In this document: piece by piece, positions 38,923 through 61,248 of the stretch
How positions within the stretch are numbered: position 1 is the first letter of the stretch
How the letters are laid out: each line of letters begins with the position of its first letter
IMG/VR virus record: IMGVR_UViG_3300046492_000366
Span: 1 to 64,000 of that record
Strand: one strand, 5' to 3'
DNA length: 64,000 nt
Source: a virus
Position numbers and translations under genes: made by a program
The notes under the pieces: generated by a model
What the model was told of the DNA's origin: nothing
The model's database searches: none
What the model saw: only the letters and a program-made list of their open reading frames with translations

Positions 38923-39390
38923 TTATGCGCGGGCTTTGTGCAACTCGATTACTGCGCCGACAGCCTCAAGGCTCGCCGACATGTATTTGGCGTGCAGAGC
39001 GCGAATTTTCTTTGCTTCGCACTCATCAATCTCACCGTCTTCCAAGGCAGAAGCCACCATCTGATCAAGCGCACCGCGCTGTGCAGATGCAGCTAGCGAG
39101 CGCTGATACAGGTCGACGTTGTCCAACTCCCCCGCTTCCGGGATCTTCACGAACACGCCGCCATACATGCCGCAGATGTAGTCGGGCAGATGCTCGGTCT
39201 TCGTCTCGCTTTCCAGCACGAAGATTTCGGCATCACTCAACGGCTTGCAGCCTGCTGTCTCGTAGATCTGGTTTTCCAGGCGCTTGTCCTTGATTCCAAG
39301 ACGCGCAGCTGCGCAATCCAATCCGCCAGGGAAAGCGTTGGACACGGCAGCCATTACTTGGCGGCGGGTCTCTAGCACGGGGGTTTTCAT
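38923..39390 (-). CDS. CII-like phage regulatory protein
   Basis: 155 residues. The N-terminus (about 8-45) has a helix-turn-helix-like segment with A-A-A-R-L-G-I-K-D-K-R-L-E-N-Q-I-Y-E, as in CII/YmfL-type regulators; the rest is helical. Second gene of the cro operon, as cII is in lambda. Expected to influence the lysis-lysogeny choice. Confidence 0.75.
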   Translation of the reverse strand: MKTPVLETRRQVMAAVSNAFPGGLDCAAARLGIKDKRLENQIYETAGCKPLSDAEIFVLESETKTEHLPDYICGMYGGVFVKIPEAGELDNVDLYQRSLAASAQRGALDQMVASALEDGEIDECEAKKIRALHAKYMSASLEAVGAVIELHKARA

Positions 39391-39454: not shown

Positions 39455-39661
39455 TCAGGCGGCGGTTCTTTGAACCGGGAGCTGGCACGGAAATGGACGA
39501 ACCTCCTCCGCTGTCAGCCTTCCGTCCTCATGCTCAATGACCAGAATTTCCCTGGCTGCCTTCAAGGCTTTCGAAATGGCTGGAGCGCTGACGCCAAGGC
39601 CCTTGGCGACAGCGGACTGACCAATTCGCTCAACCAGTTCTGGCAGTGGCGTCTTTTTCAT
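39455..39661 (-). CDS. cro: Cro-like repressor
   Basis: 68 residues. The helix-turn-helix is at about 13-33 (Q-S-A-V-A-K-G-L-G-V-S-A-P-A-I-S-K-A), like P22/lambda Cro proteins. Divergent from cI across the three operators, first gene of the leftward operon. It would repress cI transcription during lytic growth. Confidence 0.85.
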   Translation of the reverse strand: MKKTPLPELVERIGQSAVAKGLGVSAPAISKALKAAREILVIEHEDGRLTAEEVRPFPCQLPVQRTAA

Positions 39662-39768: not shown

Positions 39769-40635
39769 ATGAGCAGAAAGAAAGAGCTGTCCCCAGAACT
39801 GAAAGCTGAGTGCGACGCCGCGAAGGCGCTTTTCGTATCGAAAAAGAACGCGCTCGGATTGACTCAGGCGAGCCTTGCGGCGGAGGCTGATATATCGGCC
39901 GCTGCAGTAGCGATGTACCTGAATGGAACGAACCCTCTGAACGCCAAGTTCGCGTCGGTTCTAGCGCGTTTACTTGGCGTTCCAGTCGAGCGCTTCAGTA
40001 AGCGACTTGCGCGCGAGATCAGCGGGCTGACAAGTGTCGCCGAAGCGCCATTGGCTTCGACGCTTTCTGCCGCTGATATGGTCCGCCAGATGCTCGATAA
40101 GCAGGGCAAAGGGTTGACTGACACGGCCAGACAAAGATTGATGGCAGCCGCTGAAGCAGATGATGCCGGCGGCACCATCGAGCTTGACTACTACCGGCCA
40201 GGGGTTGTGGGTGATGAGGTATGGATTGCGCACTACGACGTCCGCGCAGCCATGGGCGGCGGCCAGATCCCGCATGACTATCCAGAGATGCTGCAGGATG
40301 TCCGAGTAAGTCCTCAGCATCTGCGCGAGATGGGTGTCGAGTTCAAAGAGCATTTCCATCTGAAAATGGTGACCGGTTGGGGTCAGTCGATGGCGCCCAC
40401 TATCAAGCATCGCGACCCGCTGCTCGTGGACGTTAGCATTCGGGAGTTCGTAGGCGATGGAATCTACATGTTTTCGTGGGAAGGTCATCTATACATCAAG
40501 CGGCTGCAGTGGATAGGGGATGAACAGATTAAGATGATTTCTGACAATGATCGTCACTCACCACAAACGATTAGATCGGAAGAAACTTTCATCCAGGCGC
40601 GCGTGCTGCTGGTGTGGAATGCCAATTTGCTTTGA
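39769..40635 (+). CDS. cI: CI-type repressor (XRE HTH + S24 peptidase)
   Basis: 288 residues. N-terminal HTH (about 30-62, L-T-Q-A-S-L-A-A-E-A-D-I-S). The C-terminal S24/LexA-like domain has the catalytic Ser207 in G-W-G-Q-S-M-A-P-T and Lys244 in Y-I-K-R-L, both present, so RecA-stimulated self-cleavage and SOS induction are expected. No Shine-Dalgarno precedes the ATG, which with the promoter position suggests a leaderless mRNA as in lambda. It maintains lysogeny by binding the operators at 39672-39768 and 43787-43823. Confidence 0.93.
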   Translation: MSRKKELSPELKAECDAAKALFVSKKNALGLTQASLAAEADISAAAVAMYLNGTNPLNAKFASVLARLLGVPVERFSKRLAREISGLTSVAEAPLASTLSAADMVRQMLDKQGKGLTDTARQRLMAAAEADDAGGTIELDYYRPGVVGDEVWIAHYDVRAAMGGGQIPHDYPEMLQDVRVSPQHLREMGVEFKEHFHLKMVTGWGQSMAPTIKHRDPLLVDVSIREFVGDGIYMFSWEGHLYIKRLQWIGDEQIKMISDNDRHSPQTIRSEETFIQARVLLVWNANLL

Positions 40636-40701
40636 TACAACCAAGAAAATCTGAATACTCAGCAACAGCCAAATTCAAACGAGAAACAACAAGGATGTCG
40701 A

Positions 40702-42417
40702 ATGGACCATATAGATAATACAAAAAAAGATGATGGTCCTTCTCTATTGCCTGATGGGCTTTCGAAAAAAGAATTAGGCATCGTCGACAATAAGAGTATC
40801 GTCATAAACTCTATTGCGGGAATTCACATCGAAAGATTTAGGGCATTTTTTAATGAGGAAATAAGCCTCGGCTCGCATGTAACAGTGTTCTCAGGACGAA
40901 ATGGAACAATGAAAACCTCTCTAATGGGTCTAATTGCACATCCATTTACAAGCCAAGCGAAAGACGGATTCGATAACACGCTCAAGACTACACTCAAGGA
41001 AGTTTTCAAGCTATCTCCTAAGCATGACCAAGAGGACTATGACTACAGCCTAATACTGGAGCTTGGGAAAGGTAAATATCTCAGAGAACCAGTCAGAATC
41101 TACTGGGTCGGCGATAAAACAAATCGACATCGCGTGGTTGTTTCAGGATCAGAGAAAGGGGACGGAAACCTAACTTATAACACTTCTTTTTTAAATCTTA
41201 AGCGGCTCTATCCGCTCGTGGATGCGAACGCCAAACTTGACGTCTCAAATGAGTTCGCGTTATCTCAAAAGGAGGAGAAAGAGCTAAAAAATTTTTATGA
41301 GACAGTTTTTCCCAGCTCTGAATATTCCCAATTTACTGGAGTATACAAGGACAGGTATAAAACGACGTACGCACCGAGCGGAGACAGCGCAAAGCATGAC
41401 TGGCTGACAATCTCTTCGGGAGAGGACAACCTCGGAGCGATTTTCAATAGATTAATCGGCTTTCAACGTGCTTATGCAAAAAATAAGATTGGTAATGGCG
41501 TCCTTTGTATAGATGAGTTTGAAGCCAGCTTACATCCAGTAGCCCAGATTAGGCTTTTTAACTATCTCTATCGCTGGGCTGGTGAGTATAAGGTACAGGT
41601 TGTGATCTCAACTCACTCTCTTGGCCTTATATCAGACATATATGCCAGCCACGCTCAGAACATTGAAGCCAATCGCATATGCATGAATTTCATCAGCAAA
41701 TCATTATCGGTTAAAGGGCGCTTACCGATTCTCAGAAACCCCCCTTTCTCACTTGCTTACAAAGAACTGACGATGGAGGATCCGCAGCAAGCTGCAGAAG
41801 CTCGAAAAATTAAAGTATTTTGCGAAGATGATATAGCCGTACATTTCGCAAAAAAGCTAATTGGATCGCAGAAGATCTTACGCGCAGTTGAATTCAAATC
41901 ATCATTAAACCCCACATCTCCGACACCAGGGATGAGCTACACTGAGTTAAAGCCACTGGCAAACACATGCGCAAGATTTCCTGCTCTGCTAGAGGGATGT
42001 CTTGTATTGTTGGATCCTGATGTGCCAGAGGAATTTTTAAAGAAGATCAAGGACAAAAATATATATCTTCTTTTACCGGATCCAGCAAATCTCGCCATAG
42101 AAAGAAGAATTATTTCATGGATTGTAGGGCTAGATAATGGTGACCCCTTCTTCAAAAAATTCGGAGAAAGGGACAGATTCCTAGACCAATTCAAACAAAA
42201 AGGCTTGGAATCTTTAAATCCAGACGCTATAATTGACGAGAAAGTTGTAAGCATCGCATCTTGCAAAAATTGGGCGTTAAGCAACTTGTCGCGGTTTAAG
42301 ATTTATGTAACTTATTACACTAAATCATGCGACGGAAAAACTGAGTTCCAGGAAAGCTTCTTAGCGGCTATTAACAAGATAAATACTTCCTCTGGACTTC
42401 CTGAGATAGAGTTTTAG
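40702..42417 (+). CDS. OLD-like AAA ATPase with TOPRIM-like C-terminus
   Basis: 571 residues, visibly A/T-richer than cI. Walker A G-R-N-G-T-M-K-T-S (65-73), ABC-type signature S-S-G-E-D (238-242), Walker B G-V-L-C-I-D-E-F-E (266-274) and switch S-T-H-S-L (303-307) show an SMC/RecF-like ATPase head. C-terminally F-C-E-D-D (373-377) and L-L-D-P-D-V-P-E-E (436-444) resemble the Glu and DxD motifs of a TOPRIM nuclease, as in OLD proteins. AAGGA lies before the ATG, 66 bp after cI with no terminator, so lysogen expression from the cI promoter is likely. Anti-phage nuclease role inferred. Confidence 0.75.
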   Translation: MDHIDNTKKDDGPSLLPDGLSKKELGIVDNKSIVINSIAGIHIERFRAFFNEEISLGSHVTVFSGRNGTMKTSLMGLIAHPFTSQAKDGFDNTLKTTLKEVFKLSPKHDQEDYDYSLILELGKGKYLREPVRIYWVGDKTNRHRVVVSGSEKGDGNLTYNTSFLNLKRLYPLVDANAKLDVSNEFALSQKEEKELKNFYETVFPSSEYSQFTGVYKDRYKTTYAPSGDSAKHDWLTISSGEDNLGAIFNRLIGFQRAYAKNKIGNGVLCIDEFEASLHPVAQIRLFNYLYRWAGEYKVQVVISTHSLGLISDIYASHAQNIEANRICMNFISKSLSVKGRLPILRNPPFSLAYKELTMEDPQQAAEARKIKVFCEDDIAVHFAKKLIGSQKILRAVEFKSSLNPTSPTPGMSYTELKPLANTCARFPALLEGCLVLLDPDVPEEFLKKIKDKNIYLLLPDPANLAIERRIISWIVGLDNGDPFFKKFGERDRFLDQFKQKGLESLNPDAIIDEKVVSIASCKNWALSNLSRFKIYVTYYTKSCDGKTEFQESFLAAINKINTSSGLPEIEF

Positions 42418-42433
42418 TATCTAGAGGGTCGAA

Positions 42434-43312
42434 ATGTATTCAAACAAGCTTTATTCTCCTCTACGGTACCCCGGCGGAAAGGCTCGATTTGCGCCTTTCA
42501 TCGCCGAGGTTATGCGGGCTAATGGCTTGGCGGACGGACACTATTTCGAACCGTTTGCTGGCGGAGCCGGAGTCGCCCTTGAGCTTCTTTTCGACGGACA
42601 TGCTTCGCATATTCATGTAAATGATCTTGACCCAGCCGTATTTGCTTTCTGGTCAGCCGCAATTACCGATCCGGATGGATTACTAAAGCTGCTCAGGGAC
42701 ACACCAATCACTATGGAGCAATGGCATCACTGGCGCTCCGTGATGCTTGCCCAGGACCCTGGTCTCTCCCTTGCCGAGAGGGGTTTTGCTACGCTTTTTG
42801 TGAACCGTACAAACCGATCCGGTATTCTCAAGGGCGGAGTCATCGGGGGAAAGGCGCAGACTGGCGCCTACAAACTCGATGCCCGATTCAGCAAGGAGAT
42901 GATTGCAGCCAGGCTTGAACGAATCGCGCTGAATTCAGAACGGATTTCGGTTTATTGTGAGGACGCCTTTCTTTTGCTCAGTCGCGCAGCAGAGTTTCTG
43001 CCAGAGCAAGCACTGATTTACCTTGACCCGCCGTACTACGTTAAAGGGCGCGGCCTGTACCGAAACTTCTATAAGCACGATGATCATTTGCAAATTGCTG
43101 AATTGCTGCAATCGACCAGCTTTGAAAGGCCGTGGGTAGTCTCTTACGATAGCGCACCAGAAATTTGCGAGATGTACAGCCAGAACGAGGCTCTAACTTA
43201 TGGACTGCACTATACCGCCCAGGCACGATATGTGGGCGATGAGGTAATGTTCTTCAAAGAAGGCATTTCTGTGCCTGATGCGAAAATTCCAAGAGCTACT
43301 GTGGCAGCATGA
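42434..43312 (+). CDS. Dam-type (D12 class) adenine-N6 DNA methyltransferase
   Basis: 292 residues. Motif X/I region L-R-Y-P-G-G-K (10-16) and F-E-P-F-A-G-G-A-G (38-46), catalytic D-P-P-Y-Y (198-202). N-R-T-N-R-S-G (124-130) is also typical of the D12 class. The target is probably a short GATC-like site but cannot be read from sequence. AGAGGG precedes the ATG, 16 bp after the OLD-like gene, so the two are one unit. It could modify phage DNA or protect the lysogen from the partner nuclease. Confidence 0.9.
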   Translation: MYSNKLYSPLRYPGGKARFAPFIAEVMRANGLADGHYFEPFAGGAGVALELLFDGHASHIHVNDLDPAVFAFWSAAITDPDGLLKLLRDTPITMEQWHHWRSVMLAQDPGLSLAERGFATLFVNRTNRSGILKGGVIGGKAQTGAYKLDARFSKEMIAARLERIALNSERISVYCEDAFLLLSRAAEFLPEQALIYLDPPYYVKGRGLYRNFYKHDDHLQIAELLQSTSFERPWVVSYDSAPEICEMYSQNEALTYGLHYTAQARYVGDEVMFFKEGISVPDAKIPRATVAA

Positions 43313-43316
43313 CTCC

Positions 43317-43339
43317 AAGCCCGGTTTATCGCCGGGCTT
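43317..43339 (+). terminator. Hairpin 1 after the Dam gene
   Basis: Stem AAGCCCGG/CCGGGCTT with a 7-base loop directly after the methylase stop; T content after it is low (CTTGTTG), so it may act with the next hairpin. Confidence 0.6.
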
Positions 43340-43368: not shown

Positions 43369-43393
43369 AGCCCGCCGTTGAGCGGGCTTTTTT
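43369..43393 (+). terminator. Rho-independent terminator after the Dam gene
   Basis: Stem AGCCCGC/GCGGGCT (43369-43375 with 43382-43388) followed by a T6 run on the plus strand. It would end the cI-OLD-Dam transcript before the rightward operator region. Confidence 0.9.
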
Positions 43394-48643: not shown

Positions 48644-50320
48644 ATGCCCATCACTTACGGAAGCGTGTGCAGCGGCATCGAAGCCGCGACACAGGCTTGG
48701 CACCCGCTGGGCATGCGCGCCGCTTGGTTCGCCGAGATCGAAGCGTTCCCCAGCGCGGTGCTGGCCCACCACTACCCGAACACGCCGAACCTCGGCGACA
48801 TGACAAAACTCGGGGCCCAGGTGCTGGCCGGCAAGATCGCCGCACCGGACGTCCTCGTCGGCGGAACACCATGCCAAGCCTTCAGCGTGGCCGGGATGCG
48901 CGAAGGACTCACCGACCCGCGCGGCGCCCTCACCATCAAATACGTGGAGCTCGCAGATGCAGTTGACTATGTTCGCGCCGGCCAGCGAAAGCCCGCCTGC
49001 GTTATCGTCTGGGAAAACGTCCCCGGTGTCCTCAGCGACAAAGGCAACGCCTTCGGATGCTTTCTTGGCGCGCTTGCTGGGGAAGACTGCGAACTGCAGC
49101 CTTCAGGGAAGAAATGGCCGGACGCTGGTTGTGTGTATGGACCCAAAAGAACAATCGCGTGGAGGATCCTGGACGCCCAATATTTCGGCCTGGCCCAACG
49201 ACGCCGCCGTGTGTTCGTTGTCGCAAGTGCTCGAGACGGATTCGATCCCTCCGAGGTACTTTTTGAGCGAGAAGGCGTGCGCCGGGATACTGCGCCGCGC
49301 CGAGGCGAGGGGCAAGACGTTACCGGATCAGCTCCTTTCGGCCCTGCGCTCCAGTGCGGATGCGGATACACCTTCGACGAGTCATTAGGGCAATACGGTT
49401 GCCCGAGCTGCGAAGGCGACGAAGGGCCGGCGGTTGGCGTGTTCTGCGGTGTGCCGGCGTTCGGCGGCCACAGCCTTGGCGGATCTGTCGAACGGTCAGC
49501 AACGCTCACCGCGAAGGACACCCGGCTCGACATGGAAAGCGAGACGTTCTTCGTGGCGCCAACCCTCGCCGGCGGCGCACGTAAGTCTGGGGGCTACTCG
49601 CTCGCCGATATCCCGAACACCGCGCCAGCACTGCGCGCTCAAGCACAGAGCAGTCACCGAGCTGACTCCGAAGCATTCATCGTGGCCGGCACACTCAATG
49701 CCAACGGCAAGGCGGCCGGCAGCGCAACTCAGCAAGACGCAGAATCCGGGCTGCTGGTTGTGCATGGCACGCAAGACCCGGATGTGCGCTTCGAGCGGGC
49801 CCATACCTTGGGCCGTAACAACGGGATGGAAAACGCCGTACTCGCCTTCTCCTGCAAGGATCACGGCGCAGACGTTGGCGATGTCGCGCCAACACTGCGC
49901 GCAATGAACCACTCCGGAAGCCATGCCAATGCCGGCGGCCAAGTCGCTGTGTGCATCACTGGCGATGTTACTCATACGCTGAAAGCCGACGGCTTCGACG
50001 GCAGCGAAGACGGTACCGGGCGAGGCCGGCCGATCGTCGCGGCGCTTTCTCCTACCCTCAGGTCCGGAAACATGCGCAACAACAGCAATCCAGTCACTGA
50101 GGCTGAAATGCTCGTTGGTGGCTCGAAGGTTCGACGCCTAATCCCGCGTGAGTGCGAACGCCTTCAAGGAATGATCGACAACTACACGCTGATCCCATGG
50201 CGCGGCAAGCCCGCCAGCGAATGTCCTGACGGGCCGCGCTACAAGGCGATCGGCAACAGCAAGGCCGTACCATGTGTTCGCTGGATCGGGCGGCGGATAC
50301 TGCGGCAGATTCAGCCGTAA
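48644..50320 (+). CDS. DNA cytosine-5 methyltransferase with large repeat-bearing insert
   Basis: 558 residues, longer than typical phage C5 enzymes (330-450). Motif I G-S-V-C-S-G-I-E (6-13), motif IV G-T-P-C-Q-A-F-S (catalytic Cys77), motif VI E-N-V-P-G (124-128), motif VIII Q-R-R-R-R-V-F (185-191), and C-terminal R-E-C-E-R-L-Q-G and Y-K-A-I-G-N-S (533-539). Between VIII and IX lies about 300 residues with a zinc-like C-G-C ... C-P-S-C (238-256) and about seven degenerate units such as A-P-T-L-A-G-G, G-T-L-N-A-N-G, S-P-T-L-R-S-G. Probably shields phage DNA from host restriction. Confidence 0.9.
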   Translation: MPITYGSVCSGIEAATQAWHPLGMRAAWFAEIEAFPSAVLAHHYPNTPNLGDMTKLGAQVLAGKIAAPDVLVGGTPCQAFSVAGMREGLTDPRGALTIKYVELADAVDYVRAGQRKPACVIVWENVPGVLSDKGNAFGCFLGALAGEDCELQPSGKKWPDAGCVYGPKRTIAWRILDAQYFGLAQRRRRVFVVASARDGFDPSEVLFEREGVRRDTAPRRGEGQDVTGSAPFGPALQCGCGYTFDESLGQYGCPSCEGDEGPAVGVFCGVPAFGGHSLGGSVERSATLTAKDTRLDMESETFFVAPTLAGGARKSGGYSLADIPNTAPALRAQAQSSHRADSEAFIVAGTLNANGKAAGSATQQDAESGLLVVHGTQDPDVRFERAHTLGRNNGMENAVLAFSCKDHGADVGDVAPTLRAMNHSGSHANAGGQVAVCITGDVTHTLKADGFDGSEDGTGRGRPIVAALSPTLRSGNMRNNSNPVTEAEMLVGGSKVRRLIPRECERLQGMIDNYTLIPWRGKPASECPDGPRYKAIGNSKAVPCVRWIGRRILRQIQP

Positions 50321-59803: not shown

Positions 59804-60090
59804 GAAGAGAGAAACCTTTACGAATAGGCCAATACAGGGAGTAAATCCGCCAAAAACTCCCGCGCATGCTATACAAGCCCATTCGCAATTAACACAAATT
59901 CCCATTAACGCTTAAGTGGCCATTGTGCAGGAACGCTTTTGGCCAGTAACAGACATTCGATTTAGTGCCTGTTCGAACCAACCTTGCAGATCTCCACCTA
60001 GCGATTGCAGCTTTTCTAGCTACGCTTGCCAGCAAGAGATTGGTGCACGTACGCCCACTCTTTAATCGTCTGGCAAGGGAGCCAACAACC
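59804..60090. other. Divergent intergenic region between receptor and HD-GYP genes
   Basis: 287 bp without a gene. An A/T-rich stretch near 59880-59915 could hold the receptor promoter; a poor match to a Fur box can be drawn there but I do not call it. Confidence 0.4.
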
Positions 60091-61248
60091 ATGGATAGCA
60101 CTCAGGGCGTTTATCCATCAGCGACCGTTCTGGTGGTCGACGACACCCCCGACAACCTGATGTTGATCGCTGAGTTGCTGAAGGACAAATATCGGGTCAA
60201 GGCCGCCAACAGTGGCGAGAAAGCCTTGCGCCTTCTACAGGCCGACCCCCTTCCCGACCTGATCCTGCTGGACATCATGATGCCGGGTCTGTCCGGTTAT
60301 GACGTTGCCGAGCAGCTCAAACTTGATGCCCGCATTCGCCATATACCGATCATTTTCCTGACCTCCATGACCGCCACGGAGGACGAGATTCGCGGCTTGA
60401 GCCTCGGTGCTGCGGATTACATCACCAAGCCGATCATCCCCCCGGTGCTCATGGCCAGGGTCGAGACGCAGATCAAGCTCAAGGCCGTTGCCGATTTCCT
60501 GCGCAATCAGAACGATTTTCTGGAGCAGGAAGTGCAACGGCGTACCCGCGAGGTGATCGCCATCCAGGATGTCACGATCCACGCGATGGCCTCGCTGGCT
60601 GAAACCCGTGACAACGAAACCGGCAACCACATTCGCCGCACCCAGCACTACATCAAACGGCTGGCTGAACTGTTGCGCAATCACCCGCGCTTCCGGCACT
60701 TCCTTGACGACGAGACCATCAAGCTGCTCTTCAAATCGGCACCGCTGCACGATATCGGCAAGATTGGCATTCCCGATCGTATCCTGCTCAAACCGGGACG
60801 GCTGACCCCGGAAGAATTCGAGGTCATGAAGACCCACACCACGTTGGGGCGCGACGCCATCCAGCACGCGGAGGATCAATTAGGCATAAACGTCGACTTC
60901 CTTCATTTGGCCAAGGAAATTGCCTACGGCCATCAGGAAAAGTGGGATGGCAGTGGCTATCCGCAAGGCGTGGCCACCGACGACATCCCGATCAGCGCGA
61001 GGTTGATGGCCGTGGCAGATGTCTACGATGCGCTGATCAGCCGCCGCGTGTACAAGCCCGGCATGCCCCATGAGCAGGCAGTGAAAATCATCCGCGAAGG
61101 CCGGGGCTCGCATTTTGATCCGGACATCTGTGACGTGTTTCTCGCCAATGCCGAGCAGTTTCGCGCAATTGCCGAGCAATTCGCCGACAGCGACCAAGAC
61201 ATGGCCAAGCAGTTAGCCCTGCTTGAGCAGATTGCCGACCGGCCCTGA
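60091..61248 (+). CDS. Response regulator with HD-GYP c-di-GMP phosphodiesterase output
   Basis: 385 residues from the ATG at 60091 (AAGGGAG ahead). Receiver domain (about 10-130) with Asp17/Asp18, phosphoacceptor Asp61 in L-L-L-D-I-M-M-P-G and Lys in I-T-K-P (111-114). HD-GYP domain (about 155-365) with H-D-I-G-K (220-224) and D-G-S-G-Y-P (286-291), the catalytic signatures for cyclic di-GMP hydrolysis. Followed after 43 bp by a hybrid kinase, so the two probably form one phosphorelay. Confidence 0.93.
   Translation: MDSTQGVYPSATVLVVDDTPDNLMLIAELLKDKYRVKAANSGEKALRLLQADPLPDLILLDIMMPGLSGYDVAEQLKLDARIRHIPIIFLTSMTATEDEIRGLSLGAADYITKPIIPPVLMARVETQIKLKAVADFLRNQNDFLEQEVQRRTREVIAIQDVTIHAMASLAETRDNETGNHIRRTQHYIKRLAELLRNHPRFRHFLDDETIKLLFKSAPLHDIGKIGIPDRILLKPGRLTPEEFEVMKTHTTLGRDAIQHAEDQLGINVDFLHLAKEIAYGHQEKWDGSGYPQGVATDDIPISARLMAVADVYDALISRRVYKPGMPHEQAVKIIREGRGSHFDPDICDVFLANAEQFRAIAEQFADSDQDMAKQLALLEQIADRP

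Follow-up and report, generated by a model that had tools for sequence, protein, structure and literature searches.

PD-Lambda-5 is a defence system that is carried by prophages, consists of two genes and was assayed in an E. coli K-12 host without mrr (Vassallo et al., 2022; PMC9519451). The GajA protein of Gabija and the OLD nucleases, such as P2 Old and the OLD nuclease of Thermus scotoductus, combine an ATPase head with a TOPRIM-type C-terminus, and in Gabija the partner of GajA is GajB, a UvrD-like helicase. PARIS brings together an ATPase and a TOPRIM-type nuclease as AriA and AriB, and AriA senses Ocr, an anti-restriction protein of phages. In type II restriction-modification, for example DpnII, a DNA methylase is found beside a type II endonuclease.

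The locus described here pairs an OLD-like ATPase with a D12-class DNA adenine methylase. It is similar to PD-Lambda-5 in being prophage-borne and composed of two genes, in having a methylase whose best PADLOC family is PD-Lambda-5 component B, and in that components A and B and the ATPase occur together in relatives. It differs in that the partner of the methylase is the OLD-like ATPase and not PD-Lambda-5_A: the PADLOC model PDLC04017 gave no match in the record at E 10, and a profile made from A-type neighbours gave none in the open reading frames of at least 50 aa in the window. The ATPase head, and probably the TOPRIM-like C-terminus, are shared with GajA and the OLD nucleases, however GajB is absent, the ATPase gene being followed by the D12 methylase and then by terminators. 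PARIS has a comparable logic of an ATPase and a putative TOPRIM-type nuclease, but the window protein is one chain that is partnered by a methylase, and its match to AriB/DUF4435 was not significant. The relationship of the methylase to M.DpnII and its position beside a candidate nuclease resemble a type II restriction-modification system, except that an ATP-dependent protein of the OLD type takes the place of a type II endonuclease, and that ATPases of the window type are replaced by very distant homologues while the methylase next to them hardly changes.

No description of the exact ATPase–methylase pair was found in the literature searched, and an earlier mention is possible in a 2020 ABC-ATPase survey, which PMC12839542 cites as describing OLD-ABC RM-like systems. 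The module is probably not yet named. An earlier sequence-only reading of this DNA was not aware of a described system with exactly this pair; the pair nevertheless has a partial precedent in its methylase, which is of the type of PD-Lambda-5_B from a tested defence system (PMC9519451).

The window, meaning the whole stretch of 64,000 bases that was analysed out of a 66,842-base IMG/VR virus record, had its closest phage matches in Pseudomonas phages, Medea1 and phiAH14a among them. On the minus strand are a CII-like phage regulator (Phage_CP76, 38923–39390; Pfam PF06892, 32.2 bits against a cut-off of 26), which starts the lytic-direction operon, and a Cro repressor (39455–39661; Pfam PF09048, E 8e-20) that is divergent from cI. 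The cI-type repressor (39769–40635, plus strand), with HTH and S24 peptidase domains over the Pfam cut-offs (PF00717 and PF01381), is the first gene of the lysogeny transcript. Directly 3' of cI and co-directional with it are the gene of the ATPase with its C-terminal TOPRIM-like domain (40702–42417, plus strand, 571 aa), the putative effector, and that of the D12-class methylase (42434–43312, plus strand, 292 aa), the putative self-marking enzyme. A terminator-like hairpin (43317–43339, plus strand, 9 pairs, 6 GC) follows the methylase, and a second (43369–43388, plus strand, 7 pairs, 6 GC) runs into a T-run, TTTTTGTGCC. A scan of the window gave no terminator-like site in the gap that follows cI or in the one that follows the ATPase, while a promoter-like match at 40632–40659 was weak and no better than chance. 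The pair therefore appears to be co-transcribed with cI. The sequence-only reading had described this arrangement, with a D12 methylase 16 bp downstream of the ATPase, both genes co-directional with cI, no terminator in between and strong terminators after them (43317 and 43369), and each of these points was confirmed.

The position of the pair is that of rexAB in lambda, directly downstream of cI, co-directional and before an early-left-type operon; the Pfam and phage-family searches assigned neither protein to a RexA or RexB family. In 8 of 10 viral lineages the gene upstream of the pair encoded a repressor or a protein of the ImmA type. The G+C content was 41% for the ATPase gene and 51.5% for the methylase gene, compared with 57% for the window, and on the basis of its low value (0.41 vs 0.57) the ATPase, at least, looks like acquired cargo. 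Elsewhere in the window, a gene for a C5-cytosine DNA methylase is contained in a plus-strand operon further to the right (48644–50320), giving the prophage a second, different methylase. A response regulator with an HD domain (59965–61248) resembles host chromosome, so that the record seems to extend beyond the end of the prophage. GATC occurs 479 times in window positions 1–64000, against approximately 241 expected by base composition alone.

We interpret the pair as a two-gene, prophage-borne, modification-guarded defence module with an OLD-type effector, related to PD-Lambda-5, and give this reading a probability of roughly 0.55. We infer nuclease activity, its silencing by methylation and a role in defence: the D12 methylase would mark the DNA of the lysogen at a fixed site, while the OLD-type ATPase with its TOPRIM-like active site would be the effector, silent on marked DNA or during methylase activity. 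Upon infection the effector would cut nucleic acid under ATP control, acting on DNA or cells without the mark, and the outcome would be either direct restriction or cell suicide.

The ATPase was over the Pfam cut-offs for AAA_15, AAA_21 and AAA_23, and residues 35–562 matched phrog_3940, a phage family of unknown function, with an E-value of 9e-78. When a named defence or TOPRIM family was looked for in Pfam, NCBIfam and PADLOC, generic ATPase matches only were returned. An alignment of 71 relatives with 20–71% identity revealed that the sole invariant residues are R47, G65, N67, K71, R168, S238, G240, I270, D271, E272, Q299, H305, S306, E375, D376, D438 and D440. Most of these belong to the ATPase motifs, and E375, D376, D438 and D440 are contained in the C-terminal domain. 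The Walker A motif consists of residues 65–72 (GRNGTMKT, 40894–40917) in the pattern G65-x-N-G-x-x-K71, the ABC signature of residues 238–243 (SSGEDN, 41413–41430), in which D242 and N243 are conserved in at least 90% of relatives, and the Walker B motif with the catalytic glutamate of residues 266–272 (GVLCIDE, 41497–41517), all on the plus strand; H305 is the H-loop histidine. The invariance of the motif residues places these motifs far beyond chance, so the complete Walker A, signature and Walker B set that had been proposed was confirmed.

The AlphaFold2 model of the full-length ATPase gave a pLDDT of 91.4 and a pTM of 0.86. When this model was compared with the PDB using Foldseek, the first match was GajA of Gabija (E 1.5e-12), followed by the Thermus scotoductus OLD nuclease (1.8e-11); these matches span approximately 590–650 columns with low TM-scores of 0.26–0.30. 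Comparison of the ATPase profile with an OLD set using hhalign gave a probability of 99.4%. Fold search and profile comparison together support the assignment of the open reading frame at 40702–42417 as an SMC/OLD-type ATPase, in agreement with the architecture first suggested, and the protein is probably a nuclease.

The TOPRIM-like core comprises residues 370–459 (41809–42078, plus strand), in which the models give the order strand with E375/D376, helix, strand, helix, strand with D438-x-D440, helix, strand. In the AlphaFold model E375 follows the strand of residues 370–374 and D438 and D440 follow the strand of residues 433–437, with helices between, which is the arrangement expected for a TOPRIM nuclease. 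The domain modelled separately gave a pLDDT of 92.4, and its four acidic residues are also invariant in a set of 64 C-terminal domains. Searches with the domain alone gave no significant match: a Pfam scan of the 64 domains returned no TOPRIM family and no DUF4435, a profile search of PDB sequences returned no match, and Foldseek returned no PDB match at E ≤0.001. Two hhalign sets were built from other genomes, with an unrelated methylase as control. No match was obtained to the OLD-TOPRIM proteins, the domain being too diverged for a PF20469-type TOPRIM, and the match to the DUF4435 set (E 0.011) was no better than the control, with E375 and the DxD motif paired with the expected residues. 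The TOPRIM identity suggested in the sequence-only reading is likely from the topology and the invariant E and DxD residues, and since the domain alone has no significant match in sequence, profile or fold searches we describe it as likely to be TOPRIM-like rather than as a proven TOPRIM.

The methylase contains the motifs RYPGGK, FEPFAGG and DPPY (motifs X, I and IV) and is over the Pfam cut-off for MethyltransfD12 (E 1e-18). Its top PADLOC family, PD-Lambda-5_B (PDLC04018), was matched with an E-value of 1.6e-110 and 367 bits, and its solved relatives include an adenine methyltransferase (7m6b) and M.DpnII (PDB id. 2dpm, E 2.5e-4). Comparison with close relatives, restricted to those with unsaturated synonymous change, gave a dN/dS of 0.03–0.04, indicating that the methylase is under purifying selection. 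No separate target-recognition domain was recognisable in either the ATPase or the methylase. MT2 of Acinetobacter (H0N27_12600), a reported orphan methylase that produces m4C at TGGCCA (PMC10287943), was weighed as a candidate relative, and a target site is not put forward on its basis.

A scan for methylases related to that of the window yielded 36 viral loci (49–97% identity), and an ATPase of the family adjoins the methylase in 36 of 36. More distant D12 methylases (38–44%) were found in named phages, three of them adjoined by a PD-Lambda-5_A-like gene. The ATPases that neighbour the 19 methylases at least 78% identical to that of the window form three groups, and between group representatives the ATPases are 21–24% identical while the methylases are 93–98% identical. 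Where the pairs are mixed, DNA similarity to the window starts at 42432–42434, the start codon of the methylase. By these comparisons the methylase stays constant within the pair and it is the ATPase that changes. The presence of near-identical methylases beside ATPases of about 22% identity suggests that site recognition probably resides with the methylase or its mark, and that the ATPase is probably an exchangeable killing part.

A gene of the PD-Lambda-5_A kind is close by in 37 ATPase loci; it joins or replaces the ATPase in relatives, and some bacterial loci add it. Comparison of six intervening genes with the PADLOC models identified five as PD-Lambda-5_A (up to 460 bits, one weakly) and one as HerA. 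We read the family as one methylase that can be accompanied by one or both of two types of effector. Two loci (L118 and L119) carry a HerA-like protein of approximately 730 aa, located between the ATPase, an additional gene and the methylase or next to them. In the Vibrio phage 10N.286.54.E5_PE002 (L209, 4486–8928) a methylase of the same D12 family faces, in convergent orientation, a HerA-like helicase, a P-loop protein and one more gene, which may make up a third set of partners. A PD-Lambda-5_A-like gene in Peduovirus P2 (L228, OU784549.1, 228–3266) is located two genes away from a methylase of the BspRI type, a hint that effectors of this kind are paired with other methylases too.

The main rival to the modification-guarded reading is a guard module similar to PARIS, in which the ATPase–TOPRIM protein would read no DNA sites but would respond when the methylase or host restriction is inhibited, for example by an anti-restriction protein of a phage, and would then abort infection by cutting tRNA or DNA, with the methylase as a bait or antitoxin. 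The occurrence of one methylase beside three very different ATPase lineages is easier to explain if no site specificity has to be shared. AriA scores highest against the ATPase in PADLOC, at 63 bits, but as one of many AAA_15-type ATPase models that match. Ranks 1 and 5 of the Foldseek search with the isolated C-terminal domain were PARIS chains of about 305 aa, which we take from their size to be AriB, however their E-values of 0.15–0.22 were not significant. The wide association with PD-Lambda-5_A and PD-Lambda-5_B favours a modification system, and overall a guard of this kind seems unlikely.

The pairing was also surveyed from the ATPase side. Profile searches gave 79 viral and 80 genome ATPase loci, for which a six-sequence profile (A1) was required; single-sequence searches of genome and viral contigs gave no relatives. 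Clustering of these loci at 62% identity gave 77 lineages. In the main clade a D12 methylase is located within 3.6 kb of the ATPase in 66 of 68 dereplicated lineages (within 150 bp in 58, within 3.6 kb in 8 more, none in 2), so that the pairing looks obligate. As the loci were picked by the ATPase alone this count is not circular. A sister clade with support of 99/98 has no methylase in any of its 8 lineages, and 1 further lineage did not have room to judge; the methylase-free loci of this clade are in bacterial genomes (L105, L107, L108, L116, L137, L140, L161 and L168). The methylase can be downstream, upstream or convergent, and paired loci occur in phages, bacteria and one archaeon, with hosts from Pseudomonadota, Bacillota, Bacteroidota, Fusobacteriota and Deferribacterota and the archaeon Methanococcoides. 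A neighbourhood survey had been named in the sequence-only reading as a test that could refute a two-gene module; the pairing was found to be conserved from both sides across phyla, which strongly supports the module. The methylase is not strictly obligatory at every locus, as three main-clade loci (L024, L099 and L148) have an intact ATPase and no methylase was found there. The ATPase at L017 (4974–6644), closely related to that of the window (58% identity), contains an in-frame stop and has no close methylase adjoining.

A prophage addiction module, in which the ATPase would be a toxin restrained by methylation such that loss of the prophage kills and phage defence is secondary, is improbable. 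A lysogeny-linked site, following either the repressor or, at the end of the prophage, the integrase, is consistent with addiction, as is the finding of a broken ATPase with an intact methylase at five loci (L007, L070, L089, L182 and L194) and never the reverse. This asymmetry was rejected as evidence, however, being too small to be significant once the greater length of the ATPase gene and the selection of loci are considered, and both the three loci with an intact ATPase alone and the many ATPase copies in bacterial genome contigs argue against addiction. That the two genes are independent cargo, an Old-like ATPase for superinfection exclusion and an orphan methylase protecting the phage from host restriction brought together by a cargo hotspot, is very improbable and largely refuted by the co-occurrence counts from both sides, the variable gene order and the spread over phages, bacteria and an archaeon, even though sites such as the one behind cI are known to hold cargo and Medea1 and phiAH14a, the closest named phages, have no such pair after their repressors.

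The pairing extends well beyond this prophage, to many groups of bacteria and some archaea. A close relative of the pair in E. coli (strain 042, for example) is located after an integrase and is annotated simply as an AAA family ATPase and a DNA adenine methylase. It was matched at the DNA level in 358 of 5,426 complete E. coli genomes, and in 85 of these the match covered 80% or more of the query. Tentatively, the family could represent a very widespread, unnamed class of modification-guarded defence in which the near-constant methylase provides self-recognition and swappable OLD-type ATPase–TOPRIM proteins, PD-Lambda-5_A proteins or both carry out the killing, with specificity held in the methylase and read through the methylase or its mark. 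If true, this would be a new restriction-modification-like class, common to prophages, bacteria and archaea, whose effector is an ATP-dependent OLD-type protein. It would account for many methylases that are now labelled as orphan, and the pattern of a constant methylase with a variable ATPase would bear on how an effector learns what is self DNA.
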